Source: Bacillus sp. ISL-45 (GTDB lineage Bacteria; Bacillota; Bacilli; Bacillales; Cytobacillaceae). Taken from it: a DNA stretch of 64,000 bases. Made by a program: the position numbers and the translations under genes. The first letter of the stretch is position 1. Each line of letters begins with the position of its first letter. The notes under the pieces were generated by a model. That model made no database searches, had not been told where the DNA came from, and was given only the letters and a program-made list of their open reading frames with translations. Below, one piece after another: positions 31,095 to 55,374 of the stretch. The DNA is taken from contig NZ_JAGGQQ010000011.1 in the NCBI RefSeq assembly GCF_018613195.1, positions 1 through 64,000 of the forward strand, in the 5' to 3' direction.

Positions 31095-31110
31095 TGTGAT
31101 TTAGGTCACT
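31095..31110 (+). promoter_or_regulatory. Fnr/Crp-type box of the hcp promoter
   Basis: TGTGATTTAGGTCACT matches TGTGA-N6-TCACA at nine of ten positions. The centre (31102.5) is 29.5 bp before the -10-like TATGCT at 31132-31137, which puts it at about -41.5, a class II activator position. hcp starts at 31174. Confidence 0.85.
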
Positions 31111-31173
31111 TAACAGGATTTTCATCCTCTGTATGCTGAAAAAGTAAATAACGCAGAAGAGGGGAATGCACAT

Positions 31174-32475
31174 ATGTTTTGTTACCAATGTGAACAAACG
31201 CCAACAGGGGGATGTAAAGTTGTTGGTGTATGCGGAAAAGATGAGACTATCGCTAGTCTTCAGGATACAATGATTTTTGCTTTGAAGGGGATTGCAGCAT
31301 ATAGAACACATGCGAACCAGCTTGGCTTCACAGATCCCTTTGTGGACGCTACAACCCATGAAGCATTATATATGACATTAACCAACTCAAACTTTAATGT
31401 TCAAGAACATATCGATATGGCAATGAAGGTTGGCCAGTCAGCTGTACGTGTGATGGAAATGCTTGATGAGGCACACACCAGCCGTCTTGGAATTCCGCAG
31501 CCTGTCAAGGTCAGCCAGAATAAGATTGAAGGAAAAGCAATCGTTGTAACAGGTCACAACCTTTTCGCGCTTGAAGAATTATTGAAGCAAACAGAAGGAA
31601 AAGGAATCAACATCTATACTCACTCCGAGATGCTTCCTGCCCATGGCTATCCAGCATTGAAGAAGTATCCGCATCTAAAAGGGAACATCGGGAAAGCCTG
31701 GTTCGACCAGCGCCGCCTGTTTGAAAAATTCCCAGGAGCGATTCTGGCCACGACAAATTGTGTAATGCCAATTAAAGGTTCATATGCAGACCGTATGTTT
31801 ACATATGAAGTTGCGGGCCTTGAGAATGTGAGCAAAATTGAAAATGATGATTTCTCCATGCTGATCGAAAGAGCATTGGAGCTTCCGGAAGCCAATATGG
31901 AATCCGAAGAAACATTAGTGACAGGCTTCCACCATGAAACAGTGATCGGACTGGCGCCTGAGGTCATTGATGCAGTAAAAGCCGGTAAAATCAAGCGCTT
32001 CTTCGTTATTGCAGGCTGTGACGCACCAGGTAAAGGCGGAGAATACTACCGTGAGCTTGCGACATCACTCCCTCCAGAAGCTGTGATCCTGACAACTTCT
32101 TGCGGAAAATTCCGTTTCAATGATGTAGATTATGGAGTGGTTCCTGGAACAAACATTCCAAGATACTTGGACCTTGGCCAGTGCAATAACTCTGTATCCA
32201 CTGTAAAAATTGCGAAGGCACTTGCTGATGCGTTTGAATGTGACGTTAATGAGCTGCCTGTCAGTATCGTCCTTTCATGGTTCGAGCAAAAGGCTGTAGC
32301 GATCCTGCTTGGATTGTTCAGTCTTGGAATTCAGGATATCCGCATTGGACCTAAGCCGCCTGAATTCATTTCTGGTGGAGTGATGGAAGTACTTCAGGAT
32401 ACATTCAACCTGAAGTTGATCACAACCGCACAGGAAGATATGGAAACGATGATGGGATTAAGCAAAACTGAATAA
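31174..32475 (+). CDS. hcp: Hybrid cluster protein Hcp (hydroxylamine reductase family)
   Basis: Fe-S enzyme of the hybrid-cluster family, linked to nitric oxide and hydroxylamine detoxification under low oxygen. The N-terminal cysteines C3, C6, C14 and C20 (CYQC … GVCGK) bind the first cluster; further Cys (ATTNCVMP, AGCDAPGKGG, TTSCGKFRFND, LGQCNNS) and Glu residues provide hybrid-cluster ligands. At 433 residues it is of the shorter class that lacks an internal helical region. There is no hcr reductase gene beside it. GAGGGGAAT precedes the ATG. The Fnr box upstream predicts anaerobic or NO-linked induction; MITE copy 2 separates the gene from its terminator. Confidence 0.94.
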   Translation: MFCYQCEQTPTGGCKVVGVCGKDETIASLQDTMIFALKGIAAYRTHANQLGFTDPFVDATTHEALYMTLTNSNFNVQEHIDMAMKVGQSAVRVMEMLDEAHTSRLGIPQPVKVSQNKIEGKAIVVTGHNLFALEELLKQTEGKGINIYTHSEMLPAHGYPALKKYPHLKGNIGKAWFDQRRLFEKFPGAILATTNCVMPIKGSYADRMFTYEVAGLENVSKIENDDFSMLIERALELPEANMESEETLVTGFHHETVIGLAPEVIDAVKAGKIKRFFVIAGCDAPGKGGEYYRELATSLPPEAVILTTSCGKFRFNDVDYGVVPGTNIPRYLDLGQCNNSVSTVKIAKALADAFECDVNELPVSIVLSWFEQKAVAILLGLFSLGIQDIRIGPKPPEFISGGVMEVLQDTFNLKLITTAQEDMETMMGLSKTE

Positions 32476-32483
32476 AAAGAATA

Positions 32484-32664
32484 GGCTCTTTTCTCAACTT
32501 TGTTGCTATTGACTACAAAATAGGATTGAAGGGCCTATTTTTATTCGAAAAGTTTCCTCGTTTGTGAGAAAAGAGCATGCAAACTAAATACCGACCTGCA
32601 AAATGGCTTACATTACGTTAAAATCGGCTTTAGGATTTTAACAACAATCTTTACGAAAACAGCC
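32484..32664. mobile_element. MITE copy 2 (181 bp)
   Basis: Flanked by the perfect 8-bp duplication AAAGAATA (32476-32483 and 32665-32672). Left end GGCTCTTTTCTCAACTTTG; right end, read inward, GGCTGTTTTCGTAAAGATTG. Contains the internal GTTAAAATC … GATTTTAAC palindrome. It lies between the hcp stop codon and the hcp terminator; with its duplication it accounts for most of the 340-bp gene-free stretch here. Confidence 0.87.
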
Positions 32665-32673
32665 AAAGAATAA

Positions 32674-32707
32674 GAACGCCCGAAGCATATGCTTCGGGCG
32701 TTTAATT
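32674..32707 (+). terminator. Terminator downstream of hcp and MITE copy 2
   Basis: AACGCCCGAAGC … GCTTCGGGCGTT followed by TAATTAAG; the T run is short. Probably the original hcp terminator, displaced by the MITE. Confidence 0.75.
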
Positions 32708-32815
32708 AAGTTTGCTATCAAATGGTTCACTACTTGTTAAACCGATTTTCTTATTAGCTATGGTGCTTTTTCCGGAAGGCTTTAGAACTTGATAAGTAGT
32801 AAATAGTTTGCGGAA

Positions 32816-33508
32816 TTAAACAAGCTCATCCATCAGAACGTCATGGTTCAATATTATGTTCCCATTTGAATCAGTAGTAATCAGTTCGTCTTTTTTTAAT
32901 TTAGTCAGCGTCCTGCTTACCGTTTCTCTAGTCGTTCCAATCATATTGGCGAGGTCTTTGTTTGTGAAATCAGCCTTTAGCAAAACCGTGCCATTCTCCA
33001 GTTTTTCTCCGTGAAGTTCACCGAGCCTGATCAAAAGCTTAATGATCTGTTCGTATGTGTTGTTCAGGATTTGTGCTTCAAGCCTTTCTTGAAGGTCAAC
33101 GATTTTTTCTCCAAGTACCTTGAATACCTTGATGCTTAAGTGAGGGTTATCAACCAAAACTTTCTCGAACTGCGAAATCGGCACGACAACGAGACTTGCC
33201 TGCTCCAATACCTCGGAATAACCTGGATATCCGCCTTTCCTGAAAAAACCTACGTGCGGGAACATTTCTCCTTTTTTCAAAATGGCCACTATTTGCTCCC
33301 GGCCATTGGCATCGCTTTTATAGATCTTCACTTTTCCTTCATTAATAAAATACACATTTTCAAGCGGATCGCCCTGCATGAAAATATGGCTGTTTTTCTT
33401 CCATTCTCGTGAAATTGATATATCGACAATCTTCTCAAGTTCATGGTCATCAAGATCCCTGAACAAAGAAAATTTAGCCAGGATTCTTTTTATCTCATTT
33501 TTATTCAA
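32816..33508 (-). CDS. Crp/Fnr family transcriptional regulator (paralogue 1)
   Basis: A 230-residue regulator with an N-terminal cyclic-nucleotide-binding-like beta-roll (FMQGDPLENVYFINEGKVKI, GEMFPHVGFFRKG), a long dimerisation helix and a C-terminal helix-turn-helix whose recognition helix GTTRETVSRTLTKL has the E-x2-SR residues that read TGTGA half-sites. The whole protein has no cysteine, so it cannot carry the [4Fe-4S] cluster of B. subtilis Fnr. I choose the TTG at 33508 (GAGGTG 6 bp upstream); this aligns exactly with the start of the paralogue at 43899. Located next to hcp; likely activator of one or more Fnr boxes in this window. Confidence 0.9.
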   Translation of the reverse strand: MNKNEIKRILAKFSLFRDLDDHELEKIVDISISREWKKNSHIFMQGDPLENVYFINEGKVKIYKSDANGREQIVAILKKGEMFPHVGFFRKGGYPGYSEVLEQASLVVVPISQFEKVLVDNPHLSIKVFKVLGEKIVDLQERLEAQILNNTYEQIIKLLIRLGELHGEKLENGTVLLKADFTNKDLANMIGTTRETVSRTLTKLKKDELITTDSNGNIILNHDVLMDELV

Positions 33509-33716
33509 AAAAAACACCTCTATCAGCTGTTTGTCCACTCTATTTTAACAAAAGGCTGATTTAAAAGACATAACAGATTGTTCCGAGAGAGGGGTAAATA
33601 GATATTATTGGAGATGGAAGAGTATGTATTCCAAAAAATAGCAGTTTGATTTATTAAACTTTTATCTTTTGCAACGAACGTTTATTCGGTAAAATAGGAA
33701 TAACGAGGTGAACGCT

Positions 33717-35993
33717 ATGAAGGTCCGGAAAAGCATAAAAGAGATTTTGCAAGAACTAAAGGTTAGTGAATCGGTAAAGAAAAACATCGTCCACTGGCAT
33801 ACGATTGAAGAGAAAGAAGCCAAAACGGAAGAAATGCCAGAAGATTTAAGCGGGATTTTAAAAGCAGCATTAGAAAGACGGGGAATTTCCCGTCTGTACA
33901 CGCATCAGAAGTCCTCTTATGATCAAATCATGCAGGGGCGGAGCATTGTGGCTGTCACGCCGACTGCTTCTGGGAAAACATTGTGTTATAACCTGCCAGT
34001 ATTACAATCGATCATTAATGATCCGAATGCCAGGGCGCTGTATATGTTCCCGACAAAAGCTCTGGCGCAGGACCAGAAGAGTGAGATCAATGAACTGATT
34101 CAGGAGGCGGAGCTGGCAATCAATAGTTATACATATGACGGAGACACTCCGTCTAATATTCGCCAGAAGGTCAGGAGGGCAGGGCATATCGTTATCACAA
34201 ATCCGGACATGCTCCATTCTGCGATCCTGCCGCATCATACAAAATGGGTTTCCCTTTTTGAAAATCTGAAGTATGTCGTCATTGATGAATTGCATATTTA
34301 CAGGGGAGTCTTCGGCAGCCATGTGGCAAATGTCATTAGAAGATTAAAGAGAATCTGCAATTACTATGGAAGCGATCCTGTTTTCATCTGTACTTCTGCT
34401 ACGATTGCGAATCCGCTTGAACTGGCTGAGGGTTTGACTGAAAAGGATATGATCCTGATTGACAATAATGGAGCTCCTTCAGGAAGGAAGCACTTTTTAT
34501 TTTATAATCCTCCAGTCGTCAATATTCCGCTGAATGTCCGCAGAAGTGCAACGCTTGAAACCAGGAGGCTCGCAGGTGAATTTCTGAAAAATAAAATCCA
34601 GACAATCGTGTTTGCTAGAAGCAGGGTGAGGGTCGAAATCCTGCTTACTTATCTTCAGGAGCTGGTCAAACACAAGCTGGGTCCAAAGGCAATCAGAGGA
34701 TATCGGGGCGGCTATCTTCCGACAGAAAGGCGCGAAATTGAAAAGGGCCTCCGTTCAGGTGACATATATGGAGTAGTCAGCACCAATGCGCTTGAACTTG
34801 GTGTCGATATTGGACAGCTACAGGTATGTATCATGAACGGTTATCCGGGAACGATCGCGAGTGCCTGGCAGCAGGCAGGACGGGCAGGGCGCCGGCACGG
34901 GGAATCGGTTGTCATCATGGTGGCCAGCTCCAGCCCGCTGGATCAATACGTTATCCAGCATCCTGCTTACTTTTTTAATCGCAGTCCGGAAACGGCGAGA
35001 ATCAACCCGGACAATTTGATTATCCTGATCGATCACATCAAGTGTGCTTCCTATGAATTGCCTTTCAAAAAGGGCGACACTTTTGGTGCTGCTGAAATTG
35101 AGGAAATACTTGAATATTTGACGGAAGAGCGTATCCTTCACCAGAACGGAGACAAGTGGTTCTGGATGAATGACGCTTTCCCGGCACACAATATCAGCCT
35201 GCGTTCAGCATCACAGGAAAATGTCGTGATCATCGACCAGTCAGATGTAGCAAATGTAAGGGTGATTGGTGAAATGGATACTTTTTCAGCGATGACATTG
35301 CTGCATGAAGAAGCCATTTATCTCCACCAGGGAATACAATTTCAGGTGGAAAAGCTTGATTGGGAGGAAAAGAAGGCGTTTGTCCGTGAAGTGGATGTCG
35401 ATTATTTTACCGATGCCAATCTTGCTGTCCAGCTTAGCGTCCTTGAAGAAGATAAAATCAGGGGCAATGAAGAAACAGAAATCGGCTATGGAGATGTCAG
35501 TGTCAGAGCAATGGCAACGATTTTCAAGAAGATCCGGTTTGAAACACATGAGAATATTGGTTCAGGACCGATTTTCCTTCCGGAAGAGGAGCTCCATACA
35601 AGCTCAGCATGGATATCACTGAACAAAGAGCTTTCGGAGTTCGGCCATGACCGGCTAGAGGAAGGGCTTATTGGGACATCTCAGGCACTAAAACATATCG
35701 CCCCATTATTCGTAATGTGCGATCCCTCTGACGTTCATGTAGTTCCGCAGGTCAAGGCGGCCCATAATGAAAAGCCAACTATCTTCTTTTATGACCGCTA
35801 CCCTGGTGGAATCGGGTTAAGCGAAAAAATATATACCGGAATCGAAGAAATTTTGAACCAAACTAAAAAAATGGTCCTGAATTGCCAGTGTTCAGACGGT
35901 TGCCCATCCTGCATCGGAACGGATACATCTTCTATTCATTCAAAAAATGATGTTGTAAAATTACTGAATTTATTCCTTAAAGCAGCTGTGTAG
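33717..35993 (+). CDS. mrfA: ATP-dependent helicase MrfA (YprA)
   Basis: Superfamily 2 DNA helicase of the Hrq1-like type, which with MrfB repairs mitomycin C adducts independently of UvrABC. Motifs: Walker A TPTASGKT (81-88), DELH (190-193), CTSATIANP, the C-terminal helicase motif QQAGRAGRRHGES and the domain DUF1998 near the end with the four-cysteine cluster CQC…CPSCIG that coordinates metal. Length 758. The ATG at 33717 has CGAGGTG 6 bp upstream; GTG 33708 overlaps it. mrfB follows after 15 bp. Confidence 0.94.
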   Translation: MKVRKSIKEILQELKVSESVKKNIVHWHTIEEKEAKTEEMPEDLSGILKAALERRGISRLYTHQKSSYDQIMQGRSIVAVTPTASGKTLCYNLPVLQSIINDPNARALYMFPTKALAQDQKSEINELIQEAELAINSYTYDGDTPSNIRQKVRRAGHIVITNPDMLHSAILPHHTKWVSLFENLKYVVIDELHIYRGVFGSHVANVIRRLKRICNYYGSDPVFICTSATIANPLELAEGLTEKDMILIDNNGAPSGRKHFLFYNPPVVNIPLNVRRSATLETRRLAGEFLKNKIQTIVFARSRVRVEILLTYLQELVKHKLGPKAIRGYRGGYLPTERREIEKGLRSGDIYGVVSTNALELGVDIGQLQVCIMNGYPGTIASAWQQAGRAGRRHGESVVIMVASSSPLDQYVIQHPAYFFNRSPETARINPDNLIILIDHIKCASYELPFKKGDTFGAAEIEEILEYLTEERILHQNGDKWFWMNDAFPAHNISLRSASQENVVIIDQSDVANVRVIGEMDTFSAMTLLHEEAIYLHQGIQFQVEKLDWEEKKAFVREVDVDYFTDANLAVQLSVLEEDKIRGNEETEIGYGDVSVRAMATIFKKIRFETHENIGSGPIFLPEEELHTSSAWISLNKELSEFGHDRLEEGLIGTSQALKHIAPLFVMCDPSDVHVVPQVKAAHNEKPTIFFYDRYPGGIGLSEKIYTGIEEILNQTKKMVLNCQCSDGCPSCIGTDTSSIHSKNDVVKLLNLFLKAAV

Positions 35994-36008
35994 CGAAGGA
36001 GGGGGAAT

Positions 36009-41765: not shown

Positions 41766-42071
41766 TTAAAAACCCTGAAGCAGTCTTTTTCCATCCTCGG
41801 TCATCCGTTCTGGTGTCCAGGCTGGCTCCCATGTCAATTGGACGTCTGCATGGTCAATTTCCTCCATGCCTTGTACGCAATATTTAATGCCGCTGGCGAT
41901 GCTGTCATGAAGTGGGCAGCCCGGAGTTGTCAGTGTCATTAAAATCTTTGCTTTGCGGGGTTCTGGAACATCTATTTCATATATCAAACCTAGATCCACA
42001 ACATTAATATTCAATTCTGGATCGATCACAGTTTTTAAATTTCCCCTGATTTTTTCCAATAATTCATTCAT
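41766..42071 (-). CDS. MIP18/DUF59 family metal-sulfur cluster assembly protein
   Basis: A 101-residue DUF59 (MIP18/PaaD-like) protein: MNELLEKIRGNLKTVIDPEL…, with the family core DPELNINVVDLGLIY and TLTTPGCPLHDSIA containing the conserved cysteine, and the Cys of KYCVQGM. Such proteins support Fe-S cluster maturation (SufT-like). AAGGAGGAG lies upstream. Last gene of the operon 43791→41766 together with two DUF2249 genes and a 12-TM protein, so it may service an iron enzyme of that system. The upstream 23 codons in frame overlap the previous gene and are not used. Confidence 0.85.
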   Translation of the reverse strand: MNELLEKIRGNLKTVIDPELNINVVDLGLIYEIDVPEPRKAKILMTLTTPGCPLHDSIASGIKYCVQGMEEIDHADVQLTWEPAWTPERMTEDGKRLLQGF

Positions 42072-42084
42072 TTCTAACTCCTCC

Positions 42085-43329
42085 TTAAATAGTGACCACT
42101 TTGGCGATAATATAGCTGAATAGGACAGTCCCGATAACAATCAATCCCTGACCGATGTAAAAGACCGGCATCAGCCTGGCAATGAATGAAAGTAATAGAA
42201 GGATCGTCCCGGCAGTAAACAAGATGAAAAGCGGCAGTGCCAGCTTCTCATCCATCATGTCCTTTAACGCAGGCACCTTCTTTTTACCGATTTCCTTGCT
42301 GTATTTATGAGTCCACCACAGGAATGGGACGATCTTATATAGATAACCAATGATACTGAAAGCAATCCAGGCGACTAAATATAGTAAAATAATCGGCCCT
42401 GCCATTTTTGAAAGGAGATTTGCGGCACTTCCTGCAAAAGCGGCAAAGTGGATTAAAGCACCGCAGCCAATCGCAAATAAGGCGAACATGAATGGGCGGT
42501 CAAGCTTCTTCTTCACACGCTTATCAATGATTATTTTGACATGCCAGGTGAAAATCATGAATCCGGCAAATAGCATGAAAGTTCCCAACACTTCAAATAA
42601 ATGGCTGCCCGTTAAGAAGGAAAAGATCAAAATGATAATTCCAACAACATAAACACCGAATACAAATGGTGCCGGTTTCATGGAATACCCATGTGAAAGT
42701 GAGAACATCGGAACCATTTTATAAGAAAAACCAAAGATCAATAATGAGAACCAGCTCACTGTACCCAGCAGGATATGAGTTTTAAAAATAGCTTGATAAT
42801 ACTCTGATGCAAAACCTGACTTCATGCTCAGAACCAATGTGATACCAAGTGTAATTGTTGCCAGGAGAGAAAACAGTGCAGTACCGACGAACAAAGTTAA
42901 GATATTTGGTTTTGCCTGGCTTTTAAGCGTCATGAACATCTGAAATATGAACATCAAAATTCCGAGCAATGTCAGGATTCCTGGAACCAAGGCATCCTGT
43001 GGGCGAAGGTATAATGCTGCAGCGAAAGATACGATTCCTGCAGTCGTTACAGCCAATTGCCAAAATCCAAATTTTTCGTTCCAAATCGGTGTCAGGAATG
43101 CGACAGGGACCAGCTGGTACATGGCACCCATAGCTACCATCAGGGCCCAGCCGAGTACGAACAGATGTGCAGCTGACCAGATTGCCGGCAATCGGAATAC
43201 GCCGGAAACAAGAAGGTCACCGTTCAGCAGGATTAGCAGCTGTGAAAGAATTAACGCGAGCATGCTGAAGCCGATGAATGAAAAAGGAAGCTTTATATTT
43301 GTTTCGTTACCACTTTTTTGCTGAAACAT
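42085..43329 (-). CDS. 12-TM haem-copper-oxidase/NnrS-like membrane protein
   Basis: About 414 residues with roughly 12 TM helices. A segment recurs with the same pattern: HLFVLGWALMVAMGAMYQLV (about residues 58-80), HILLGTVSWFSLLIFGFSYK and a later WIAFSIIGYLYKIVPFLWW, each ending Y-x2-VP-x-F-like; the first two carry a His at the start, as in haem-binding helices of cytochrome oxidase subunit I and NnrS proteins. Other membrane His occur in FTWHVKII and ALIHFAAF. I infer a haem- or copper-binding protein of nitrogen-oxide metabolism. The start is uncertain: ATG 43338 and ATG 43329 are both in frame. Confidence 0.7.
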   Translation of the reverse strand: MFQQKSGNETNIKLPFSFIGFSMLALILSQLLILLNGDLLVSGVFRLPAIWSAAHLFVLGWALMVAMGAMYQLVPVAFLTPIWNEKFGFWQLAVTTAGIVSFAAALYLRPQDALVPGILTLLGILMFIFQMFMTLKSQAKPNILTLFVGTALFSLLATITLGITLVLSMKSGFASEYYQAIFKTHILLGTVSWFSLLIFGFSYKMVPMFSLSHGYSMKPAPFVFGVYVVGIIILIFSFLTGSHLFEVLGTFMLFAGFMIFTWHVKIIIDKRVKKKLDRPFMFALFAIGCGALIHFAAFAGSAANLLSKMAGPIILLYLVAWIAFSIIGYLYKIVPFLWWTHKYSKEIGKKKVPALKDMMDEKLALPLFILFTAGTILLLLSFIARLMPVFYIGQGLIVIGTVLFSYIIAKVVTI

Positions 43330-43334
43330 TTGAT

Positions 43335-43550
43335 TCACCCCGCTTTGCGGGAAATAGTCACGCGATAGCTTCCATCTTCTTGCTGTTCAGTCAAATAAAG
43401 ATATCCTAGTTCATCAAGCTGCTCGAACAGAAACATCGGACGTCGGTCATTGATAATGATAAGCGTCTGTCCTTCCTCAAGCTCCTCCAGCTTTGCCAGT
43501 GTCCGCATCATCGGCTGTGGCGGTTCAAGCCCTCTGTTATCCAGGATCAT
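43335..43550 (-). CDS. DUF2249 domain protein (71 residues)
   Basis: A small soluble protein beginning MILDNRGLEPPQPMMRTLAK with IIINDRRPMFLFEQLDELGY, the DUF2249 pattern (TusA-like alpha/beta sandwich). Function of the domain is unknown; it is often encoded beside or fused to hemerythrin-like and NO-related proteins. It lies between another DUF2249 gene and the 12-TM gene with near-zero spacing, so it is in one operon with them. Confidence 0.82.
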   Translation of the reverse strand: MILDNRGLEPPQPMMRTLAKLEELEEGQTLIIINDRRPMFLFEQLDELGYLYLTEQQEDGSYRVTISRKAG

Positions 43551-43551: not shown

Positions 43552-43791
43552 TTATTTCCCTCCCTTTTTTGTAAAAGTAATTTTATAATGTTTTGCCTCG
43601 ATTTTTTCGACTACGTGTTCAAATCCCTTTGCTTTTAAAACCCCATACAAGGGGACAGGCTTGAAAGGTGCATGGAGGACCAGTCTGTCATTCAATTCCA
43701 AATCGCCAATGGCTTCCATGATTTTTTGGAAAGGCTCCAGCTTGTTATTTATATCCTCACGCACATCCAATTCTATCGTTCTGTGTTCCAT
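43552..43791 (-). CDS. DUF2249 domain protein (79 residues)
   Basis: MEHRTIELDVREDINNKLEP… then LVLHAPFKPVPLYGVLKAKG, a clear DUF2249 signature (LDVRE, H/ND-APFxPxPL). First gene of the operon 43791→41766. An Fnr-type box and a matching -10 lie upstream (43857-43872 and 43835→43830). CCGAGGAGCTG-like binding site: the reverse strand reads GAGGAGCTG before the ATG. Confidence 0.85.
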   Translation of the reverse strand: MEHRTIELDVREDINNKLEPFQKIMEAIGDLELNDRLVLHAPFKPVPLYGVLKAKGFEHVVEKIEAKHYKITFTKKGGK

Positions 43792-43829: not shown

Positions 43830-43872
43830 ATGATAATCATTTTCACTCTTTTCTGCCGTGATACGCATCACT
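43830..43872 (-). promoter_or_regulatory. Fnr/Crp box and -10 of the DUF2249 operon
   Basis: Plus strand CGTGATACGCATCACT (43857-43872) is a CGTGA-N6-TCACT palindrome; its centre (43864.5) is 29.5 bp from the start of the -10-like TATCAT (reverse strand 43835→43830). A Fur-like TGATAATCA at 43831-43839 overlaps the -10 and may be coincidental. Confidence 0.8.
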
Positions 43873-43898: not shown

Positions 43899-44588
43899 CT
43901 AAAACAATTCCTGATGCAATTTTTCATGGTCGATCAGATAGTAGCCGTCAGGATCCAAACTTAAGTAATCTTTTTTCTTTAAATGGTTGATGGTTCTGCT
44001 GACAGTTTCCCTGGAAGTACCGATCATGTTGGCAAATTCCTTATTGGTAAAATGGGTGGTCAATTTAAATCCATGTTCCTTCTTTTCTCCATTTGTCTTG
44101 CAAAGGCGGAGTAACAGCATAATGATCTGTTCGTATGTATTGTGAAGAATCTGTTCCTCGAGCCTGGCCTGCAAATCGATGATCTTCTCTCCAAGGACAC
44201 GGAATAACTTAATAGATAGTTCAGGATAGGCAACCAGGATCTCTTCAAATTTAGAGATTGGTACGATGATCATCTGTGTGTCTTCCATTATTTCCGCGTG
44301 GGCAGGGTATTGGCCTTTCCTGAAGAAGCCAGCGTGAGGAAACATTTCACCGGATTCAAGGACAGAAACGATTTGTTCTCTTCCTGATGAGTCGGTTTTA
44401 TAAATTTTCACCTTCCCTGAATGAATGAAGAAAACGCGGTCTAGCGGATCTCCCTGCATGAAAGCATACATTTTATTTTTAAAGAATCTTGGCTGGGCGA
44501 TTTCTATGATCGGATCCAGCTCCTCTGTCGATAATTCTTTGAAAATAGGAACTTCTTTCAATTGCTGTCTGATTTGTGATATATGCAT
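43899..44588 (-). CDS. Crp/Fnr family transcriptional regulator (paralogue 2)
   Basis: A 229-residue regulator collinear with the one at 32816: MHISQIRQQLKEVPIFKEL…, FMQGDPLDRVFFIHSGKVKI, GEMFPHAGFFRKGQYP and recognition helix GTSRETVSRTINHLKK with E-x2-SR. It contains a single cysteine (LLRLCKTNG), so it cannot hold a [4Fe-4S] cluster; sensing by haem or another ligand is possible, as for the NO sensor DNR, but not shown. GAGGAG lies about 9 bp upstream of the ATG. It is divergent from the NO reductase gene and upstream of the DUF2249 operon, the usual place for a local regulator. Confidence 0.9.
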   Translation of the reverse strand: MHISQIRQQLKEVPIFKELSTEELDPIIEIAQPRFFKNKMYAFMQGDPLDRVFFIHSGKVKIYKTDSSGREQIVSVLESGEMFPHAGFFRKGQYPAHAEIMEDTQMIIVPISKFEEILVAYPELSIKLFRVLGEKIIDLQARLEEQILHNTYEQIIMLLLRLCKTNGEKKEHGFKLTTHFTNKEFANMIGTSRETVSRTINHLKKKDYLSLDPDGYYLIDHEKLHQELF

Positions 44589-44657
44589 CTCAATCTGCTC
44601 CTCTATGATTTGATTAAGTATCTGCCGTAAATTTTATCAAGGGAAAGAGGAGGGCTA

Positions 44658-44722
44658 AGTGACCTGAATCATATTTTGACGTTTTTATGAAAATAATTAT
44701 CATTGCTGTGGGAAATATCACA
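44658..44722 (+). promoter_or_regulatory. Two candidate Fnr-type sites upstream of norB
   Basis: Site A, AGTGACCTGAATCATA (44658-44673), has its centre 29.5 bp before AATTAT (44695-44700), the same spacing as the other promoters, but both parts are weaker. Site B, TGTGGGAAATATCACA (44707-44722), matches the palindrome better but lies 52.5 bp before TATGCT (44767-44772), a class I-like distance. Confidence 0.55.
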
Positions 44723-44811
44723 CCCGGCAAATGAGGAACTTCACAAACTAAACATTTCATTCCCATTATGCTTAAGTTGTAAAAAAAAAACAGGGAAGGG
44801 GTGTATGGTAG

Positions 44812-47175
44812 ATGGAAATCCAGCATGGAACATCCTCGAAGGCAGTGGTCAAGAAAAATAGAAACTCACTGCTGAAATCCGTACTCATCATCACATTATT
44901 ACTTAGCTTTACAGTACTCCTGACAGGAGGTTACTGGATCTTTAAAGATATGGCTCCTAGGCCGCTAGAAGTGACAAACGAAAAGGGAGAGGTCATCTTA
45001 ACGAAAGAAAGCATCATGGGAGGGCAGGCTGTCTTCCAGAAATATGGTTTGATGGATTATGGAACTGTATTAGGGCATGGATCCTATATGGGGCCTGATT
45101 ACACGGCAGAGGCACTGAAAATTTATACTGATGGGATGCATGACTTCAAGTCACAAGAAAAATATGGTAAGGGTTTTAAAGCGTTGACGGGAGATGAACA
45201 AACAATCATCCGGGACACTGTCATGAAGGAGATGCGTGAAAACCGTTATGTGCCGGATACCGATAAGCTGGTGCTGACAGAGGCACAAATAAATGGGCAC
45301 GAAAAGGTAAGGGAATTCTATCATACTATTTTTACTGAAGGTGATCAGTGGGGTCTAAAGCCAGGGTTAATTCAGGAAAAACATATGCCGGACGGGGAGC
45401 GAGCCTGGGTATCAAAGGGCGATCAGATTGAGCAAATCGCTGATTTCTTTTTCTGGACAGCATGGCTTTCAAGTACAGAAAGACCCGAAGATGATATTAC
45501 TTATACAAATAACTGGCCATATTATGAGGATGCCGGAAACACTATGTCCTTCTCTGCAATCTGGTGGAGTGGTGCGAGTGTGACCATATTGATTCTATTC
45601 GTAGGATTAATCCTGTTTGTTTTCTACCGTTATCATTTAGGGATGCAAGAGGCTTATACAGCCGGGAACTTCCCGAAAATCGATTTGAGGAAGCTTCCGC
45701 TTACATCCTCGCAATTGAAAACAGGTAAATATTTCGCGGTTGTTTCTGTACTGTTCTTTGTTCAGGCAATGTTCGGAGCGCTGCTCGCTCACTATTATAT
45801 CGAGCCTGACAGTTTCTTTGGAATGAAGTGGGTCCATGATATCCTGCCATTCAATATTACAAAAGGATTCCACCTTCAGCTGGCAATCTTCTGGATTGCG
45901 ACTGCATGGTTAGGAATGGGCATCTTCATCGCTCCGCTGGTCGGCGGGCATGAACCAAAGCGCCAGGGAATACTAGTCGACATATTATTCTGGGCACTAG
46001 TTGTGCTTGTAGCCGGCAGCATGATTGGCCAATGGCTTGGTGCAAACGGCTACCTGGGCAACAATTGGTTCTTATTAGGTCACCAGGGCTGGGAATACCT
46101 TGAGCTGGGACGCATATGGCAGTTCATTCTTGCGACCGGAATGCTGATCTGGCTGTTCATCGTATTCCGCGGGATCAAGAGTGGGTTGAAGAGGGAATCA
46201 GACAAAGGCGGCCTGATTCACCTGTTGTTTTACTCAGCAATTGCCGTGCCAGCATTTTACTTCTTCGCTTTCATGATCAATCCAGGCACACACTATACCT
46301 TTGCTGACTACTGGCGCTGGTGGATCATCCATCTCTGGGTTGAAGGAATATTCGAAGTTTTCGCAGTCGTTGTCATTGGTTTCTTAATGGTCCAAATGAA
46401 GCTAGTCACGAAAAAATCAACAATAAAAGCATTATACTTCCAGTTAATCCTGCTGATGGGAGCAGGTGTCATCGGTATCGGCCACCATTTTTATTACAAT
46501 GGTTCTTCCGAAGTCTGGATTGCGCTCGGTTCTGTATTCTCTGCTCTGGAAGTCATCCCGTTGACCTTGCTCATTCTGGAAGCATATGAACAGTACAAAA
46601 TGATGAGGGATGGGGGAGTTGATTTCCCTTATAAAGGTACATTCTGGTTCTTGATTTCAGTAGCCATTTGGAATCTGGTAGGTGCAGGTGTACTTGGCTT
46701 CCTGATCAACCTGCCTGCAGTCAGCTTCCTTGAGCACGGCCAATTCCTGACACCAGCACACGGCCACGCGGCGATGATGGGTGTGTATGGAATGTTCGCA
46801 GGCGCAGTATTGATCTACTCATTGCGCAATATTGTGAAGCCTGAAAAGTGGAACGACAGGTGGGTTAAATTCATAGTCATCATGCTGAACGCAGGCTTGG
46901 CTGGCATGGTATTCCTGTCATTGCTGCCAGTCGGATATCTTCAGTTAAAAGAAGCATATTTCAATGGTTATGCAGCTTCACGTTCATCTCAGTTCTTACA
47001 GCGGGAAACAGTTGAAATGCTCCTGACGCTGAGGGCAATACCAGATACGATTTTCTTGATTGGTGTTGCTGCGCTGGCAATATTCAGCTTAAAAGCACTC
47101 TTCAATCTCCGTAATGTGACACATAAAGAAGAAGAACAGCTGCCAGTAAAAGATTTGGCTATTGATGAAGATTAA
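44812..47175 (+). CDS. norB: Quinol-dependent nitric oxide reductase (qNorB)
   Basis: Single-subunit NO reductase of 787 residues that reduces NO to N2O with quinol electrons. An N-terminal TM helix and a large extracytoplasmic domain (about 40-240, cytochrome c-like but without CxxCH) precede 12 TM helices. Haem and non-haem iron ligands are seen in GFHLQLAIFW (about 353), IIHLWVEG (about 507), IGIGHHFYYNG (about 558) and HGHAAMMGVYG (about 648). This length and the fused N-terminal domain mark the quinol-type enzyme. GGGAAGGGGTG precedes the ATG at 44812. It is divergent from a Crp/Fnr gene; a terminator follows. Confidence 0.95.
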   Translation: MEIQHGTSSKAVVKKNRNSLLKSVLIITLLLSFTVLLTGGYWIFKDMAPRPLEVTNEKGEVILTKESIMGGQAVFQKYGLMDYGTVLGHGSYMGPDYTAEALKIYTDGMHDFKSQEKYGKGFKALTGDEQTIIRDTVMKEMRENRYVPDTDKLVLTEAQINGHEKVREFYHTIFTEGDQWGLKPGLIQEKHMPDGERAWVSKGDQIEQIADFFFWTAWLSSTERPEDDITYTNNWPYYEDAGNTMSFSAIWWSGASVTILILFVGLILFVFYRYHLGMQEAYTAGNFPKIDLRKLPLTSSQLKTGKYFAVVSVLFFVQAMFGALLAHYYIEPDSFFGMKWVHDILPFNITKGFHLQLAIFWIATAWLGMGIFIAPLVGGHEPKRQGILVDILFWALVVLVAGSMIGQWLGANGYLGNNWFLLGHQGWEYLELGRIWQFILATGMLIWLFIVFRGIKSGLKRESDKGGLIHLLFYSAIAVPAFYFFAFMINPGTHYTFADYWRWWIIHLWVEGIFEVFAVVVIGFLMVQMKLVTKKSTIKALYFQLILLMGAGVIGIGHHFYYNGSSEVWIALGSVFSALEVIPLTLLILEAYEQYKMMRDGGVDFPYKGTFWFLISVAIWNLVGAGVLGFLINLPAVSFLEHGQFLTPAHGHAAMMGVYGMFAGAVLIYSLRNIVKPEKWNDRWVKFIVIMLNAGLAGMVFLSLLPVGYLQLKEAYFNGYAASRSSQFLQRETVEMLLTLRAIPDTIFLIGVAALAIFSLKALFNLRNVTHKEEEQLPVKDLAIDED

Positions 47176-47459: not shown

Positions 47460-47502
47460 TGTGACCGCGCTCACTACAAGTGGGATACAGGAGAATTATA
47501 AT
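47460..47502 (+). promoter_or_regulatory. Fnr/Crp box and -10 of the lone DUF2249 gene
   Basis: TGTGACCGCGCTCACT (47460-47475), nine of ten matches to TGTGA-N6-TCACA. Its centre (47467.5) is 29.5 bp before a perfect TATAAT (47497-47502). Confidence 0.88.
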
Positions 47503-47542: not shown

Positions 47543-47776
47543 ATGACTTTCAATGTTATTATCAATGTTCCTGATTATGCCCCACGGGAAAAACACCCGA
47601 CCATATTCCAAAACTTTGACTCACTGCACAAGGGGGAATTCATGCAAATCGTCAATGACCATGACCCTAGACCGCTGCAATACCAATTCATGATGGAACG
47701 CCCGGAGTCATTTTCATGGGAGTATCTAGAGGAAGGCCCAGAAACATGGCGAGTGGCAATCGGTAAAACGAAATAA
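47543..47776 (+). CDS. DUF2249 domain protein (77 residues)
   Basis: MTFNVIINVPDYAPREKHPT…, then MQIVNDHDPRPLQYQFMMER and WEYLEEGPETWRVAIGK: the DHDPxPL form of DUF2249 that is often linked to hemerythrin-like and NO-response proteins. AAAGGAGAG precedes the ATG. Monocistronic, with its own Fnr-type promoter and a TTCG-capped terminator. With the two at 43.3-43.8 kb it makes three DUF2249 genes in this island. Confidence 0.88.
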   Translation: MTFNVIINVPDYAPREKHPTIFQNFDSLHKGEFMQIVNDHDPRPLQYQFMMERPESFSWEYLEEGPETWRVAIGKTK

Positions 47777-49677: not shown

Positions 49678-49699
49678 TAAGATTCTTTTTTAGAAAATA

Positions 49700-49725: not shown

Positions 49726-49739
49726 CTGTGGGTGAATGT

Positions 49740-50645: not shown

Positions 50646-50702
50646 TTCAATCTCGTTTGAAGTGGTAAAAAAGCAAATAATAAACGCACGAATTAACAGA
50701 GA

Positions 50703-50736
50703 AAGGAGCCTGGTCACAAACCCAGGCTCCTTTTCC
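50703..50736 (+). terminator. Terminator of the EamA gene
   Basis: AAAGGAGCCTGG … CCAGGCTCCTTTT. Confidence 0.9.
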
Positions 50737-50924
50737 TTTAAATTAAAGCACTTTTTGGTTTAGGTAAATTGTTTCACTTTAGATTGTAATCAAAGATTTT
50801 TAGCGAAAAATGCAGATAACTTAGGGGGCAACTAGACAAAGGATTATGTTTTGTGATAAATTATTACAGTAAAAATCCTTTGAAAACTACATATTTTTAA
50901 ATCGATGAAAAGGAAAGTAGTTTT

Positions 50925-51155
50925 TGCTATATTCGATAGCGAGCCGGGGACGGTGGAAGCCTGGCGATGAAGCATAAATGAAGAACACCTTTGAGTTCTA
51001 ACCGAAAGGGATATCGTGAGTAGGCTTAGACGTTTCCAGCACGTTATAGACTGGGATATGCAATAGTAAAGCTGGTCATTTTATGACAATTTGGGTGGTA
51101 CCGCGGAAGTTCAGCCTTTCGTCCCTTTTTTGGGGATAGAAGGCTTTTTTTATTG
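50925..51155 (+). promoter_or_regulatory. T-box riboswitch upstream of asnS
   Basis: The invariant T-box GGGTGGTACCGCG lies at about 51092-51104 and is followed by a terminator whose stem AGCCTTTC … GATAGAAGGCT ends in a T run (51113-51152). Stem I elements with GAGTAGG (AGUA-like) lie near 51018. A plausible Asn specifier codon AAC is at 51000-51002, but I assign it only tentatively. Uncharged tRNA-Asn would stabilise the antiterminator and allow asnS expression. Confidence 0.92.
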
Positions 51156-51183
51156 CAAAAAAATTACCATAAGGAGGCTAATT

Positions 51184-52575
51184 ATGATTAAGACCGTAGT
51201 AAAAGATTTATACAGAAATCAAGAAAATTTTAAAGACAAAACTGTTCAAATTACAGGGTGGATCCGTACGCTACGCGATTCCAAAACCATTGGTTTTATG
51301 GAGTTAAACGATGGAACATTCTTTAAGAGTGTACAAGTTGTTTTTGAAGATACCCTTGATAACTTCAAAGAAATTACAAAGTTGCCTATTAGCTCTTCTG
51401 TTTTAGTAGAAGGTGAATTTGTTCCAACTCCTGAAATGAAGCAGCCGTTTGAAATTAAAGCAACAAAAATTGTAGTCGAGGGATTGTCGGATACAGATTA
51501 CCCTATACAAAAAAAGAGACATACCCTTGAATATTTGAGAACAATCGCTCATTTACGTCCGAGAGCCAACGCCTTCTCAGCCGTCTTCAGAGTAAGATCT
51601 CTTGCATCCTATGCCCTTCATAAATTCTTTCAAGACAAAGGGTTTGTATATGTACATACACCGATTATTACCGGAAGTGATACTGAAGGAGCAGGGGAGA
51701 TGTTCCGTGTAACATCAATGGACTTGAACCAGCTTCCAAAAACCGAAGACGGAAAAGTGGATGACAGTGCAGATTTCTTCGGTAAAGAAACAAACTTAAC
51801 TGTTAGCGGCCAATTAAATGTCGAAAGCTTTGCTCTTGCTTTCCGTAATGTGTATACCTTTGGTCCGACATTCAGAGCAGAAAATTCCAATACGGCACGA
51901 CATGCCTCAGAATTCTGGATGATCGAGCCGGAAGTTGCCTTTGCAGAATTACCGGATATCATGGACCTTGGAGAAGAAATGGTCAAGTATGTCATTGATT
52001 ACGTTTTTGAACATGCACCAGAAGAAATGGCCTTCTTTAACAGCTTTATTGATAAAACACTTATCGAAAGATTGAAGAATGCATTAGAATCCGATTTCGG
52101 ACGCGTTACTTATAGCGAAGCTGTTGAATTATTGAAGAACTCAGATAAGGAATTTGAATACCCTGTTGAATGGGGTACAGATTTGCAAACGGAACATGAA
52201 CGTTACCTTAGCGAGGAAATTTACAAACGTCCTGTCTTCGTAACCGACTATCCGAAAGAAATTAAGGCATTTTATATGCGAGCGAATGAGGATGGCAAGA
52301 CAGTTGCCGCGACAGACCTTTTGGTTCCCGGCATTGGCGAGTTAATCGGCGGAAGCCAGCGTGAGGAAAGAGAAGACGTTCTTGCAGAGCGAATTAAAGA
52401 ACTTGGTATGGCGGAAGAAGATTACTGGTGGTATCTCGAGCTTAGAAAATACGGCAGCACAAAGCATTCTGGTTATGGTATTGGATTCGAACGACTTGTT
52501 ATGTATCTAACTGGAATGAAAAACATCCGCGATGTCATTCCATTCCCTCGTACACCAGGAAATGCAGAATTTTAA
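51184..52575 (+). CDS. asnS: Asparaginyl-tRNA synthetase (463-residue type)
   Basis: Class IIb aminoacyl-tRNA synthetase: N-terminal OB-fold anticodon-binding domain (about 1-110, [20 protein letters not shown]) and catalytic core with motif 2 [20 protein letters not shown], and motif 3 [15 protein letters not shown]. At 463 residues, with the insert around [20 protein letters not shown], it is the type found in clostridia and many Gram-negatives, not the ~430-residue form that B. subtilis has between aspB and dnaD. AAGGAGG lies 5 bp before the ATG. Codons look more AT-rich than those of neighbours. Together this suggests acquisition by transfer. Confidence 0.95.
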
Positions 52576-52597
52576 TTAAAATATGTGTAAAAATGCA

Positions 52598-52627
52598 AAA
52601 TAGGATGCTGAGGCATCCTATTTTTTT
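52598..52627 (+). terminator. Terminator of asnS
   Basis: AAATAGGATGC-TGAG-GCATCCTATTT followed by a T run. Confidence 0.92.
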
Positions 52628-52633
52628 CATGGA

Positions 52634-52738
52634 AGTCGAATAAGCTATTCCATGATGCGGCCCATAACAAGCCTCTTATATTGGTAGGCATCGGGTTATG
52701 TTCGATTTTAATGGCAGGTATTTTGTATGTAAAATAAC
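52634..52738 (+). pseudogene. Possible 3' remnant of a membrane protein gene
   Basis: An open frame without a start reads KSNKLFHDAAHNKPLILVGI followed by a hydrophobic stretch ending ILYVK and a stop (TAA near 52736). It looks like the C-terminal TM segment of a small membrane protein, cut at the asnS terminator. Low confidence. The remaining 52576-52892 gap holds only the two terminators. Confidence 0.3.
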
Positions 52739-52827
52739 AGGGCGGGAATGACAAGATCAGCATGCTAAATAGTGTGATATTAAGTTTTTTATTTATATGT
52801 TAATCGTATAAATGCTGCTAAAACAAC

Positions 52828-52870
52828 AAAAAACAGGGTGAAATTTTTTGCAATTTCATACCCTGTTTTG
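52828..52870 (-). terminator. Terminator of the ba3 oxidase operon
   Basis: AAAACAGGGT … ACCCTGTTTT with an inner GAAATT/AATTTC pairing; T-rich on the reverse strand side. Confidence 0.88.
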
Positions 52871-52892
52871 GTTGATTCATAGAAAGTGTTTT

Positions 52893-54548
52893 TTAGAAGA
52901 ATTTATATCCCTTCGACCCGATCGGTGCATTTTCGATCATATCGATGAACGGTATCGTGTATGCGAAGAGAATCAAAAGGACAGTGATGCCAAGCCATAG
53001 CTTCCAGTTTTCGAATACCATCGGAGTTTTCTCTGCTTGGTCAGCAACTTCTCCAACAGGGAATTCTTCTTCCCCTTTAGGTGCGAAGAATGCAAGGTTA
53101 ATGAAAATGTAAAGGATCAGGATGATTCCAAGGAACAGGATAGATCCGCCGACTGCCTGTGCAACCTGGTAAGGAATCCATTCAGCTGCTTGCTCTGAAC
53201 CGCCGTACGTTGAGAATGAAGAACGGCGTGGAGCTCCAAGCAGACCAGCTGCGTGCATCGCACCGGACATGAATGTCATACCGATTGCCCAAACAATTCC
53301 CTGGATAATGGCTAGTTTATTCATAGCCTTTGTCAAGACCCTGCCAGTCAGGTGAGGGACCAGCCAATAAGAAATCCCAAAGAAAGTAAGGACAACTGAA
53401 GTTGCAAGTGTTAAATGGAAGTGTCCTGTAACCCAGATTGTGTTGTGTACTACCTGGTTCAACTGGTGGGAAGCATTGACTAGTCCACCAGCACCGGCAG
53501 GGATGAATGCAAGCATACCTATGAAAGGTACTGCGAATCGGGCATCTCCCCAAGGAAGCTTTTTCACCCAGCCGAATAGGCCGGTAGATCCTTTAGAACG
53601 GCCAAACATTTCAAATGTCGCAAACAATGAGAATGCGGTCATCAATGATGGGATGACAACAAGGAATGTCAAAATAACCTGAAGGAATTTCCATGCTGGG
53701 TCAATACCTGGTTCCATTAACTGGTGGTGGAAACCAACCGGAATTGAGAACAACAGGAACAGAATGAATGACATTCTAGCTAATGAATCAGAGAAAATCT
53801 TTCCGCCTATAATTTTTGGAACGATTGCGTACCAGGCCATATATGCAGGCAATAACCAGAAATACACAAGCGGGTGGCCGAAATACCAGAACAATGTACG
53901 GCTGACCAATACATCTACACGCTCAACAAGGCCAAGCGACCAAGGAAGCAGCTGGAATAGTACTGTTGCAGCAACACCAATCGTAGCTACGATCCACATA
54001 AGCGTGTTGACGAGTGACATGAAAGTCAACAGCGGGCTAGGCTTTCCAGGATTAGCTTTTCTCCACGAAGAGTAAGCCATGATGATTGCAGCGCCGTCAA
54101 TCCAGCTTCCGACGATCACGAGTGTAAGTCCCAAGTAAAAGAGTGCGTGTGCCTGTAATGGTGCGTAGAATGTATAAAGAACAGAAGCCTGGTTTGTCAG
54201 GATCATGATAGCAGCCATTACAGTACCGATGGTCATCGTCCAGAAACCAATCCAGCCAGTCTTTCGCTGTTTATTTGTTAATGTTCCGGATGTTTTGCTC
54301 ACAAGAGAGAGCTGGAATCCCATAATGAAAAATGTTGTAAGCACGAGTCCAAGTACGACACCATGGATGGTAAGGATTTGGTAATACCCAGTCCATGAAG
54401 GTAATTCAAATTTTCCTGAACGGACAAGTGTCTGGAGCAAACCTGCAAGACCGCCAATTGCAAGAGCGATGAAAGCGACATAAAAGTGGGCCATTGCCAA
54501 TTTGCCGTCTCGGCGGTCAACCTTTGGATTAATTGATTTAGTATTCAT
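52893..54548 (-). CDS. cbaA: ba3-type cytochrome c oxidase subunit I
   Basis: Class B haem-copper oxidase core of 551 residues, about 13 TM helices. Ligands match the Thermus ba3 pattern: haem b His in TIHGVVLGL, CuB His and cross-linked Tyr in FGHPLVYFWLLPAY, the CuB His pair in VGFHHQLMEPG, and the haem a3/b histidines in VTGHFHLT. It reduces oxygen to water with high affinity and pumps protons. Its ATG overlaps the stop codon of subunit II by one base, with GAGGTGG in the end of that gene. Last gene of a three-gene operon. Confidence 0.95.
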   Translation of the reverse strand: MNTKSINPKVDRRDGKLAMAHFYVAFIALAIGGLAGLLQTLVRSGKFELPSWTGYYQILTIHGVVLGLVLTTFFIMGFQLSLVSKTSGTLTNKQRKTGWIGFWTMTIGTVMAAIMILTNQASVLYTFYAPLQAHALFYLGLTLVIVGSWIDGAAIIMAYSSWRKANPGKPSPLLTFMSLVNTLMWIVATIGVAATVLFQLLPWSLGLVERVDVLVSRTLFWYFGHPLVYFWLLPAYMAWYAIVPKIIGGKIFSDSLARMSFILFLLFSIPVGFHHQLMEPGIDPAWKFLQVILTFLVVIPSLMTAFSLFATFEMFGRSKGSTGLFGWVKKLPWGDARFAVPFIGMLAFIPAGAGGLVNASHQLNQVVHNTIWVTGHFHLTLATSVVLTFFGISYWLVPHLTGRVLTKAMNKLAIIQGIVWAIGMTFMSGAMHAAGLLGAPRRSSFSTYGGSEQAAEWIPYQVAQAVGGSILFLGIILILYIFINLAFFAPKGEEEFPVGEVADQAEKTPMVFENWKLWLGITVLLILFAYTIPFIDMIENAPIGSKGYKFF

Positions 54549-55024
54549 TATTCTACCACCTCGATTTTAGACGACATCATGTGGTGGCCGACACCACAAT
54601 ATTCATTACAAACAATCAGGTAATCACCGGCTTTGTCAAACGTGGTGACGTACTCACTGATATATCCAGGCTCAAGCATCATGTTGATATTAGTTCCTGC
54701 AACCTGGAAACCGTGAATGACGTCTTTTGTAGTCGCGATTACTTTCACTTTAGCTCCTTTAGGAACTTCGACCTGTCCAGGGTTGTAGGCAAATGCCGAT
54801 GCCACGAAAACAAGTTCGTAATCCCATTCTTTTCCTTCAACCTTCTTTAGTCCAGGTTTATCGAAAGGTGCTGTAGTATCTACCTTTTCAGGATTGATTG
54901 TTGCCAGGCAGCTCGGAGGCTGGTTGCCTAAATAGAAGGCGCTGACCCCAATAACAGTCAGGAATACGATTAAGGTCGTAATTCCGAATATCAGCCAGAT
55001 TTTTTCAAATTTATGAATATGCAT
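54548..55024 (-). CDS. cbaB: ba3-type cytochrome c oxidase subunit II (CuA)
   Basis: A 158-residue subunit with one N-terminal TM helix and an extracytoplasmic cupredoxin domain carrying the binuclear CuA site: VIHGFQVAG (first His) and CNEYCGVGHHMM (two Cys, His, Met). It receives electrons from cytochrome c, in this genome possibly via the c domain of QcrC and small cytochromes. GGGGAGAAAG precedes the ATG. The single TM helix is typical for class B oxidases. Confidence 0.95.
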   Translation of the reverse strand: MHIHKFEKIWLIFGITTLIVFLTVIGVSAFYLGNQPPSCLATINPEKVDTTAPFDKPGLKKVEGKEWDYELVFVASAFAYNPGQVEVPKGAKVKVIATTKDVIHGFQVAGTNINMMLEPGYISEYVTTFDKAGDYLIVCNEYCGVGHHMMSSKIEVVE

Positions 55025-55051
55025 AACTTCTTTCTCCCCTTTTGGTCTATC

Positions 55052-55201
55052 TTAGAAACGATCAACAAACAAGAAATAAACGCCTACCCAAGTAACGATT
55101 AAAAAGAATCCTAACAAGAAAACGGATGCAAGTGTTCCTTTCAAGGAAGATTGGTCTTCCACCTTTGTATGTGTTTTCTTCCCGATTCCAGGCTGAGCCA
55201 T
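55052..55201 (-). CDS. Cytochrome c oxidase subunit IIa (CoxIIa-like)
   Basis: A 49-residue protein MAQPGIGKKTHTKVEDQSSL… with one TM helix (about 24-45) ending YFLFVDRF. By size, single helix and place as first gene before subunits II and I, it is the subunit IIa of ba3 oxidases, which replaces the second helix missing from subunit II. AAGGGAGTGG lies 6 bp before the ATG at 55201; longer in-frame starts lack a site. Confidence 0.85.
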   Translation of the reverse strand: MAQPGIGKKTHTKVEDQSSLKGTLASVFLLGFFLIVTWVGVYFLFVDRF

Positions 55202-55331
55202 CCCGGTCCACTCCCTTCGTATGAAATGTTCGTTTATAAATGATAAGTACATTTTCATAATACAAAACAATTTGGAAACGTAAATATGGTTTCAGACAGT
55301 TCACAAATTGTTCATACCTGATATATTTACT

Positions 55332-55374
55332 ATGTTAATGGTGAAAACGCGTCAATACAGTGATTTAAGTCACA
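55332..55374 (-). promoter_or_regulatory. Fnr/Crp box and -10 of the ba3 oxidase operon
   Basis: Plus strand AGTGATTTAAGTCACA (55359-55374), nine of ten matches to TGTGA-N6-TCACA. Its centre (55366.5) is 29.5 bp from the start of the reverse-strand -10-like TAACAT (55337→55332). The predicted leader is about 124 nt. The 55202-55565 gap also contains three direct TGTGA repeats near 55389-55421. Confidence 0.8.

Follow-up and report, generated by a model that had tools for sequence, protein, structure and literature searches.

Described Crp/Fnr regulons and the promoters considered here

The subject of this analysis is a set of Crp/Fnr-type boxes in a 64,000-nucleotide stretch of DNA from Bacillus sp. 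ISL-45 (contig NZ_JAGGQQ010000011.1, positions 1 to 64,000; hereafter the window), which lie ahead of the genes for the hybrid cluster protein (hcp), a nitric oxide (NO) reductase (norB), DUF2249 proteins, a ba3-like oxidase and P0002, one of two Crp/Fnr regulators (P0001 and P0002) encoded there. In B. subtilis, Fnr sites occupy the -41.5 position and ywiC is an Fnr target. The promoters described here resemble that regulon in the half-site TGTGA...TCACA, in the class II position and in a ywiC-like target, but differ from it in that their targets are mainly NO defence genes and oxidases, and in that the linked regulators lack iron-sulphur (Fe-S) cysteines. They also differ from those of DNR/NnrR, as the DNR site is TTGAT-N4-ATCAA, whereas the boxes here read GTGA-N6-TCAC, or have ATGA in the first arm, and are not of the TTGA type. 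DUF2249, the family that recurs at this locus, we take to be COG4309.

All papers are cited here from excerpts, and what is said of them holds for those excerpts. The B. subtilis Fnr consensus is tabulated as TGTGAN6TCACA (PMC8151001), and the Crp/Fnr-family regulators DNR/NnrR and HcpR control hcp, hmp, dnrN and nor (Rodionov 2005, PMC1274295). The present system has Crp/Fnr-family proteins with the same kinds of target, here as linkage and sites only. The same paper has COG4309 co-transcribed with nor genes under NnrR or NsrR in Proteobacteria and ascribes NO control in Bacillus to NsrR, with sites only before hmp (PMC1274295), while HcpR of Porphyromonas uses Met68 and perhaps His149 for haem (PMC12750200). 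In Thermus the DUF2249 protein DrpA needs the regulator DnrT for its expression in nitrate respiration (PMC6282519); this too ties a DUF2249 protein to a regulator, but DrpB is a 273-amino-acid protein rather than one with 12 transmembrane helices (12-TM), and no fixed-spacing regulon appears in the excerpted text of that paper. In the fnr2-qnorB-dnrN cluster of B. licheniformis, a Crp/Fnr gene likewise adjoins that of a quinol NO reductase, the sites and regulon being undescribed in the part of the source drawn on here (PMC4719734). No description of the present regulon was found in the open-licence literature searched; the promoter architecture is of a known kind, while neither the gene set nor the two proteins that likely control it appear to have been described in that literature.

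Boxes and -10 hexamers at a constant distance

An earlier note on this DNA had placed TGTGA-N6-TCACA-like palindromes before hcp, an operon of DUF2249, 12-TM and DUF59 genes, a lone DUF2249 gene and the oxidase operon, each with a -10-like hexamer 29.5 bp from the box centre. All four boxes are present there (Table 1), the inner arms being exact GTGA-N6-TCAC palindromes in every case, and on the strand of the gene that each box precedes, the hexamers TATGCT, TATCAT, TATAAT and TAACAT begin at a distance of exactly 29.5 bp from its centre, which corresponds to a centre at about -41.5 and supports the class II geometry that had been claimed. The two weaker candidate sites announced for norB were found as well, one of them with a TATGCT at 29.5, and this norB site is conserved. 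A count of five promoters is too low, however, as the window holds at least six sites, among them the box of the P0002 gene itself, absent from the earlier list, and 16 of 114 oriented palindromes have the geometry genome-wide. Exact GTGAN6TCAC sites number five in the window, the fifth (22308) lying inside an open reading frame (ORF) and lacking TANNNT at 29.5; the P0002 and norB boxes fall outside this count because one arm reads ATGA. Outside the core, each promoter has outer bases of its own, which the genus largely keeps: TATGA before P0002, AATGA in most cases before norB and TGTGA..TCACT before the oxidase. The intergenic region between the divergent P0002 and norB genes (44589-44811) holds three Crp/Fnr-type boxes; the one in the middle, 23 bp above the box of norB, may be a tandem site.

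All 57 GTGAN6TCAC palindromes of the genome (G000; 4.6 Mb, 27 contigs) were read both ways, giving 114 oriented sites (32 + 82 listings). TANNNT stands at 29.5 in 16 of these, 15 of which match TATAAT at four or more of six positions, while the counts at 24 other distances, from 20.5 to 44.5, range from 0 to 6 with a mean of 2.46 (Poisson P = 8.5e-9; 2.1e-7 after correction for 25 distances). With the four sites of the earlier note removed, 12 remain at 29.5 (P = 1.1e-5; 2.7e-4 if corrected for 25 distances). That note had judged chance unlikely and proposed a matrix scan of the genome; the count on exact palindromes plus TANNNT bears the judgement out, also without the four sites, as does the conservation described below. 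Across the genome the palindrome as such shows no enrichment (114 oriented listings vs 110 for the backwards pattern), and therefore it is the fixed spacing and the conservation that carry the signal, not the number of palindromes. A looser pattern, TGTGAN6TCACA with one mismatch (117 vs 71 backwards), was not used; other palindrome-binding factors may contribute to it.

For hcp, the lone DUF2249 gene and cox2 (oxidase subunit II of the ba3-like oxidase), loci were compared in this genome and 60 others from the genus, family and order, taking the best 30 per search, own genome included, of 44, 33 and more than 100 listed matches, respectively. With at most one arm mismatch allowed and a TANNNT of at least 3/6 matches required at exactly 29.5, the motif is present in 29 of 30 hcp, 28 of 30 lone DUF2249 and 27 of 30 cox2 loci. 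Mean pairwise identities in arms, gap and -10 are 100, 47 and 91% for hcp (28 loci), 99, 33 and 94% for lone DUF2249 (28 loci) and 100, 76 and 94% for cox2 (26 loci), those of the arms and -10 being partly set by the search rule, which the constant gap length (21 bp) and the high match rate are not. In sequence the gap diverges among the relatives.

A further set of named loci, the best 80 of 218, was found via the 12-TM protein P0003 and includes Mesobacillus, Neobacillus, Cytobacillus, Robertmurraya and others. Boxes at 29.5 precede the P0002 gene in 51 of 56 of these loci (and in the one locus with a partial match), norB in 36 of 37 and the lone DUF2249 gene in 59 of 61. The 12-TM protein is found in 80/80 by construction, because the loci were chosen by it; both operon DUF2249 genes are present in 80, DUF59 in 79, a P0002 match in 58, norB in 38 and the lone DUF2249 gene in 62. 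The DUF2249 operon has a box of its own in 16 of the 56 loci with the P0002 gene ahead of it vs 22 of the 24 without that gene, and this box often has the TATGA...TCAC form otherwise found ahead of P0002. In a simple reading, a single promoter would serve whichever of the two comes first, the regulator gene having been gained or lost behind it, ahead of the operon. The data support one promoter architecture common to hcp, norB, the DUF2249 genes and the ba3-like oxidase and conserved across genera.

Candidate regulators and the readings they allow

HTH_Crp_2 was matched at 14 places in the genome, the best seven being full-length Crp/Fnr proteins. Four of these paralogues carry the C-terminal cysteines of Bacillus Fnr (CENCP/CQNCS-type), and this cluster is absent from P0001 and P0002; the label Fnr-type given in the earlier note therefore fits the site and not the window's two regulators. 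P0001-type proteins have 0-2 cysteines and P0002-type proteins 1-4, the commonest in the latter being Cys163 (48/54), and His85 is invariant in both groups (54/54 P0002-type and 31/31 P0001-type rows; with repeats removed, 53 and 27 distinct sequences). R193, E194 and R198 of the recognition helix are conserved at 95% or more in both groups, and the roles of such R-E...R residues are known from CRP. The seventh paralogue (L082) has neither the Fe-S cysteines nor the triad. Membership of the regulon is mostly coherent and conserved, and P0001 and P0002, which are not Fnr by the cysteine test, are likely NO regulators.

The gene neighbourhoods connect these two proteins with the boxes. In 27 of 30 hcp loci the fetched flank contains a P0001-type gene (at least 50% identity), an arrangement that, together with the box at hcp, is the likeness to HcpR. 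Outside the genus a P0001/P0002-type regulator occurs in 14 of 14 genomes with a close hcp vs 8 of 26 without (Fisher 2.2e-5), as counted by eye in 40 genomes with thresholds of at least 78% identity for hcp and at least 50% for the regulator; G033, whose hcp is in two pieces, was taken as present, and G029, G062 and G067, with an hcp of 43-45% only, as absent. Two genomes, G023 and G047, give no Fe-S Fnr match at E 1e-30. G023 keeps its hcp, DUF2249 and oxidase (cox2) boxes at 29.5, and of its three HTH_Crp_2 proteins over the cut-off two have neither the cysteine cluster nor the full R-E...R triad, and therefore only its P0001-type gene fits.

G047 offers a separate observation, as an hcp-type box with a -10 at 29.5 stands beside its P0001-type gene (L354, about 2490-2505) in a 5-kb stretch that has no hcp ORF. 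It looks as if hcp had been lost and its promoter left behind, the reading being of the P0001 neighbourhood only, with hcp not searched for in the rest of G047.

We favour, with a probability of roughly 0.7, the reading that P0001 and P0002 form a cluster-less, DNR/HcpR-like pair of Crp/Fnr activators that controls an NO/low-oxygen regulon through the class II boxes. In this model an activator dimer would bind GTGA-N6-TCAC, the R-E...R recognition helix reading the two arms, and would make contact with RNA polymerase where the box is centred at about -41.5, with 29.5 bp between its centre and the -10. Its predicted targets in the window would be hcp, norB, the P0002 gene itself (autoregulation), the DUF2249/12-TM/DUF59 operon, the lone DUF2249 gene and the ba3-like oxidase, and elsewhere in the genome hmp, a truncated haemoglobin, RIC, a hemerythrin, a nirB-like gene, a ywiC-like gene and a second oxidase. 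P0002, beside norB and putatively autoregulated, and P0001, beside hcp, would be the best candidates for dedicated activators, while the four Fe-S Fnr paralogues may also bind there and bring in oxygen control. Judging from the targets and from the analogy to DNR and HcpR, P0001 and P0002 probably respond to NO or reactive nitrogen species, and the gene content is such that the regulon appears to join NO detoxification, iron-sulphur repair and low-oxygen respiration. More tentatively, the two proteins might represent an undescribed Bacillaceae branch of NO-sensing, Fe-S-free Crp/Fnr activators that share their -41.5 boxes with Fe-S Fnr, with a core regulon in which DUF2249 proteins and the 12-TM protein would be new NO-handling parts; if both kinds of regulator used the same boxes, oxygen and NO signals would therefore converge on one site. 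The predicted regulon can be tested; two candidate NO regulators come with it for a group of Bacillaceae, and norB and hcp share the predicted circuit with three DUF2249 proteins, the haem-copper-like 12-TM protein and a DUF59 protein.

Several observations weigh against control by P0001 and P0002. Six paralogues, namely these two and the four Fe-S Fnr proteins, share the R-E...R triad, and therefore their sites are not distinguishable by the core box and any of them may act there. A TGA lies in frame close to the N-terminal end of the P0001-type gene of G023 (L353, beside hcp), the G047 copy being intact, and for that reason G023 is support rather than proof. Relatives also share sites and linkage by descent, so that they are not independent. 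Of seven cox2 loci in genomes where P0001 and P0002 have no close relative, three carry the oxidase box; of 11 in genomes where they have one, four lack it. The box precedes cox2 in at least 14 of 24 named loci, a lower bound because some upstream regions end at the locus edge. Of those seven loci, the three that carry a box belong to genomes whose Fnr match is weak (E 1e-39 to 1e-53); the box is lacking in G058, where the match is good, and in three loci whose genomes gave no Fnr match. Fnr control of the oxidase would account for this small set equally well or better. Co-occurrence gave no assignment of promoters to single regulators in the case of the oxidase, whose box does not track P0001/P0002, and of the "one response" into which the earlier note had tied these genes the shared architecture stands, while a single response is unproven.

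If the Fe-S Fnr paralogues acted alone, the boxes would mark an ordinary Fnr regulon under oxygen control, like that of B. subtilis, and P0001 and P0002 would do something else. Such a regulon would suit the four paralogues with CENCP/CQNCS-type cysteines, the ywiC-like gene in the set and the three oxidase boxes that go with a weak Fnr match. The box moreover resembles TGTGAN6TCACA, quoted in PMC8151001 from B. subtilis Fnr work. We nevertheless consider it unlikely, as G023 keeps its three boxes with no Fnr match at that cut-off, the P0002 gene itself has the same kind of box in most loci, and hcp is both linked to and co-occurring with P0001/P0002-type genes. A division of labour, with P0001 and P0002 acting on hcp, norB and DUF2249 genes, Fe-S Fnr acting on oxidases and nitrate genes, and specificity coming from sensor signals and outer bases, is a serious possibility that we would stop short of calling probable: it would explain why outer bases differ per promoter and are largely kept within the genus and why the oxidase box does not track P0001/P0002, but the cores and the six recognition triads are alike and no target proved exclusive to one regulator. 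That chance or some other palindrome-binding factor such as Rex accounts for the boxes is very improbable; the palindrome's lack of genome-wide enrichment would agree with it, but the fixed 29.5 spacing and the conservation do not, and a repressor would need no fixed -41.5 position. The Rex site is TTGTGAAW4TTCACAA (PMC2883068), and none of the four boxes in the window shows its GTGAA..TTCAC form.

Genes of the window and the wider gene set

The features of the window are collected in Table 1; the names ba3-like, MiaB-like, nirB-like and nitrate-reductase-like used here rest on Pfam domains or sequence judged by eye. In haem-copper oxidases most of the metal ligands sit in helices 7 and 10. 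For the 12-TM protein P0003, Pfam gives no more than a weak COX1 match under its cut-off, and the structure model of P0003 (pLDDT 84.6) matches cbb3 oxidase and cNOR folds by Foldseek (best E 2.3e-7, template-modelling score about 0.6-0.7; E 3.7e-5 against the NO reductase 3o0r). Its invariant histidines are H58, H188, H216, H266 and H297, and helices 7 and 10, as counted on the model, have no invariant histidine. Going by the model, P0003 would therefore be haem-copper-like in fold and unlikely to be a standard oxidase or NO reductase.

Table 1. Boxes, -10 hexamers and genes in the window (positions on the 64,000-nucleotide stretch)
Feature	Position	Strand	Remarks
Crp/Fnr-type box before hcp	31095..31110	+	TGTGATTTAGGTCACT; class II position
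-10 hexamer of hcp	31132..31137	+	TATGCT; predicted start about 31144
hcp, hybrid cluster protein	31174..32475	+	Prismane PF03063
P0001, Crp/Fnr regulator	32816..33538	-	no Cys at all; convergent neighbour of hcp
DUF59/FeS_assembly_P protein	41766..42140	-	PF01883; last gene of DUF2249 operon
P0003, 12-TM protein	42085..43338	-	haem-copper-oxidase-like fold (model)
DUF2249 protein 2 of operon	43335..43550	-	
DUF2249 protein 1 of operon	43552..43791	-	
-10 hexamer of DUF2249 operon	43830..43835	-	TATCAT
Crp/Fnr-type box before DUF2249 operon	43857..43872	-	AGTGATGCGTATCACG
P0002, Crp/Fnr regulator	43899..44588	-	no Fe-S Cys cluster; adjoins norB
-10 hexamer of P0002 gene	44631..44636	-	TAAAAT; 29.5 from box centre
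Crp/Fnr-type box before P0002 gene	44658..44673	-	TATGATTCAGGTCACT
Second, weaker norB box	44707..44722	+	TGTGGGAAATATCACA
norB class II box	44730..44745	+	AATGAGGAACTTCACA
-10 hexamer of norB	44767..44772	+	TATGCT; 29.5 from norB box centre
norB, single-chain NO reductase	44812..47175	+	NorB_cytochrome_c-like + COX1
Crp/Fnr-type box before lone DUF2249 gene	47460..47475	+	TGTGACCGCGCTCACT
-10 hexamer of lone DUF2249 gene	47497..47502	+	TATAAT
P0004, lone DUF2249 protein	47543..47776	+	
Oxidase subunit I (COX1)	52893..54548	-	ba3-like label by eye
P0006, oxidase subunit II (COX2)	54548..55024	-	
P0008, short membrane protein	55052..55201	-	possibly subunit IIa, by eye; first gene of oxidase operon
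-10 hexamer of oxidase operon	55332..55337	-	TAACAT
Crp/Fnr-type box before oxidase operon	55359..55374	-	TGTGACTTAAATCACT

Counting the window's four, 14 of the 16 genomic sites at 29.5 have a gene directly downstream, and most of these genes, not all, fit NO, nitrite or low-oxygen metabolism. By Pfam, the candidate targets outside the window include a Hemerythrin protein, a flavohaemoglobin (hmp; Globin and FAD/NAD domains), a truncated haemoglobin (Bac_globin), a YwiC-like protein (YwiC) and RIC (ScdA_N and Hemerythrin). Others are a radical SAM/SPASM protein, a pyridine nucleotide-disulphide oxidoreductase with Fer2_BFD that is nirB-like by eye, and a 401-amino-acid protein that has no Pfam match and stands beside a nitrate-reductase-like start (by eye). 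At C1:290580 (L002) the first protein matched no Pfam family, its label as a nitrate transporter being by eye only. A second oxidase operon with a class II box (L030, G000:C5:17734) comprises a short membrane protein, COX2 and a COX1-like start, and a UPF0004/radical SAM protein that is MiaB-like (tRNA modification) by eye has its class II box about 210 bp before the gene (L037, G000:C23:144663). The site at C12:334922 has no ORF of at least 50 amino acids starting within about 400 bp downstream, and that at C23:529283 has a poor -10 (3/6) and no convincing gene. Finally, a 20-kb region (L093, G000:C22:114000-133900) brings together two of the Fe-S Fnr paralogues and three class II boxes, which lie before the RIC, ywiC-like and radical SAM genes.

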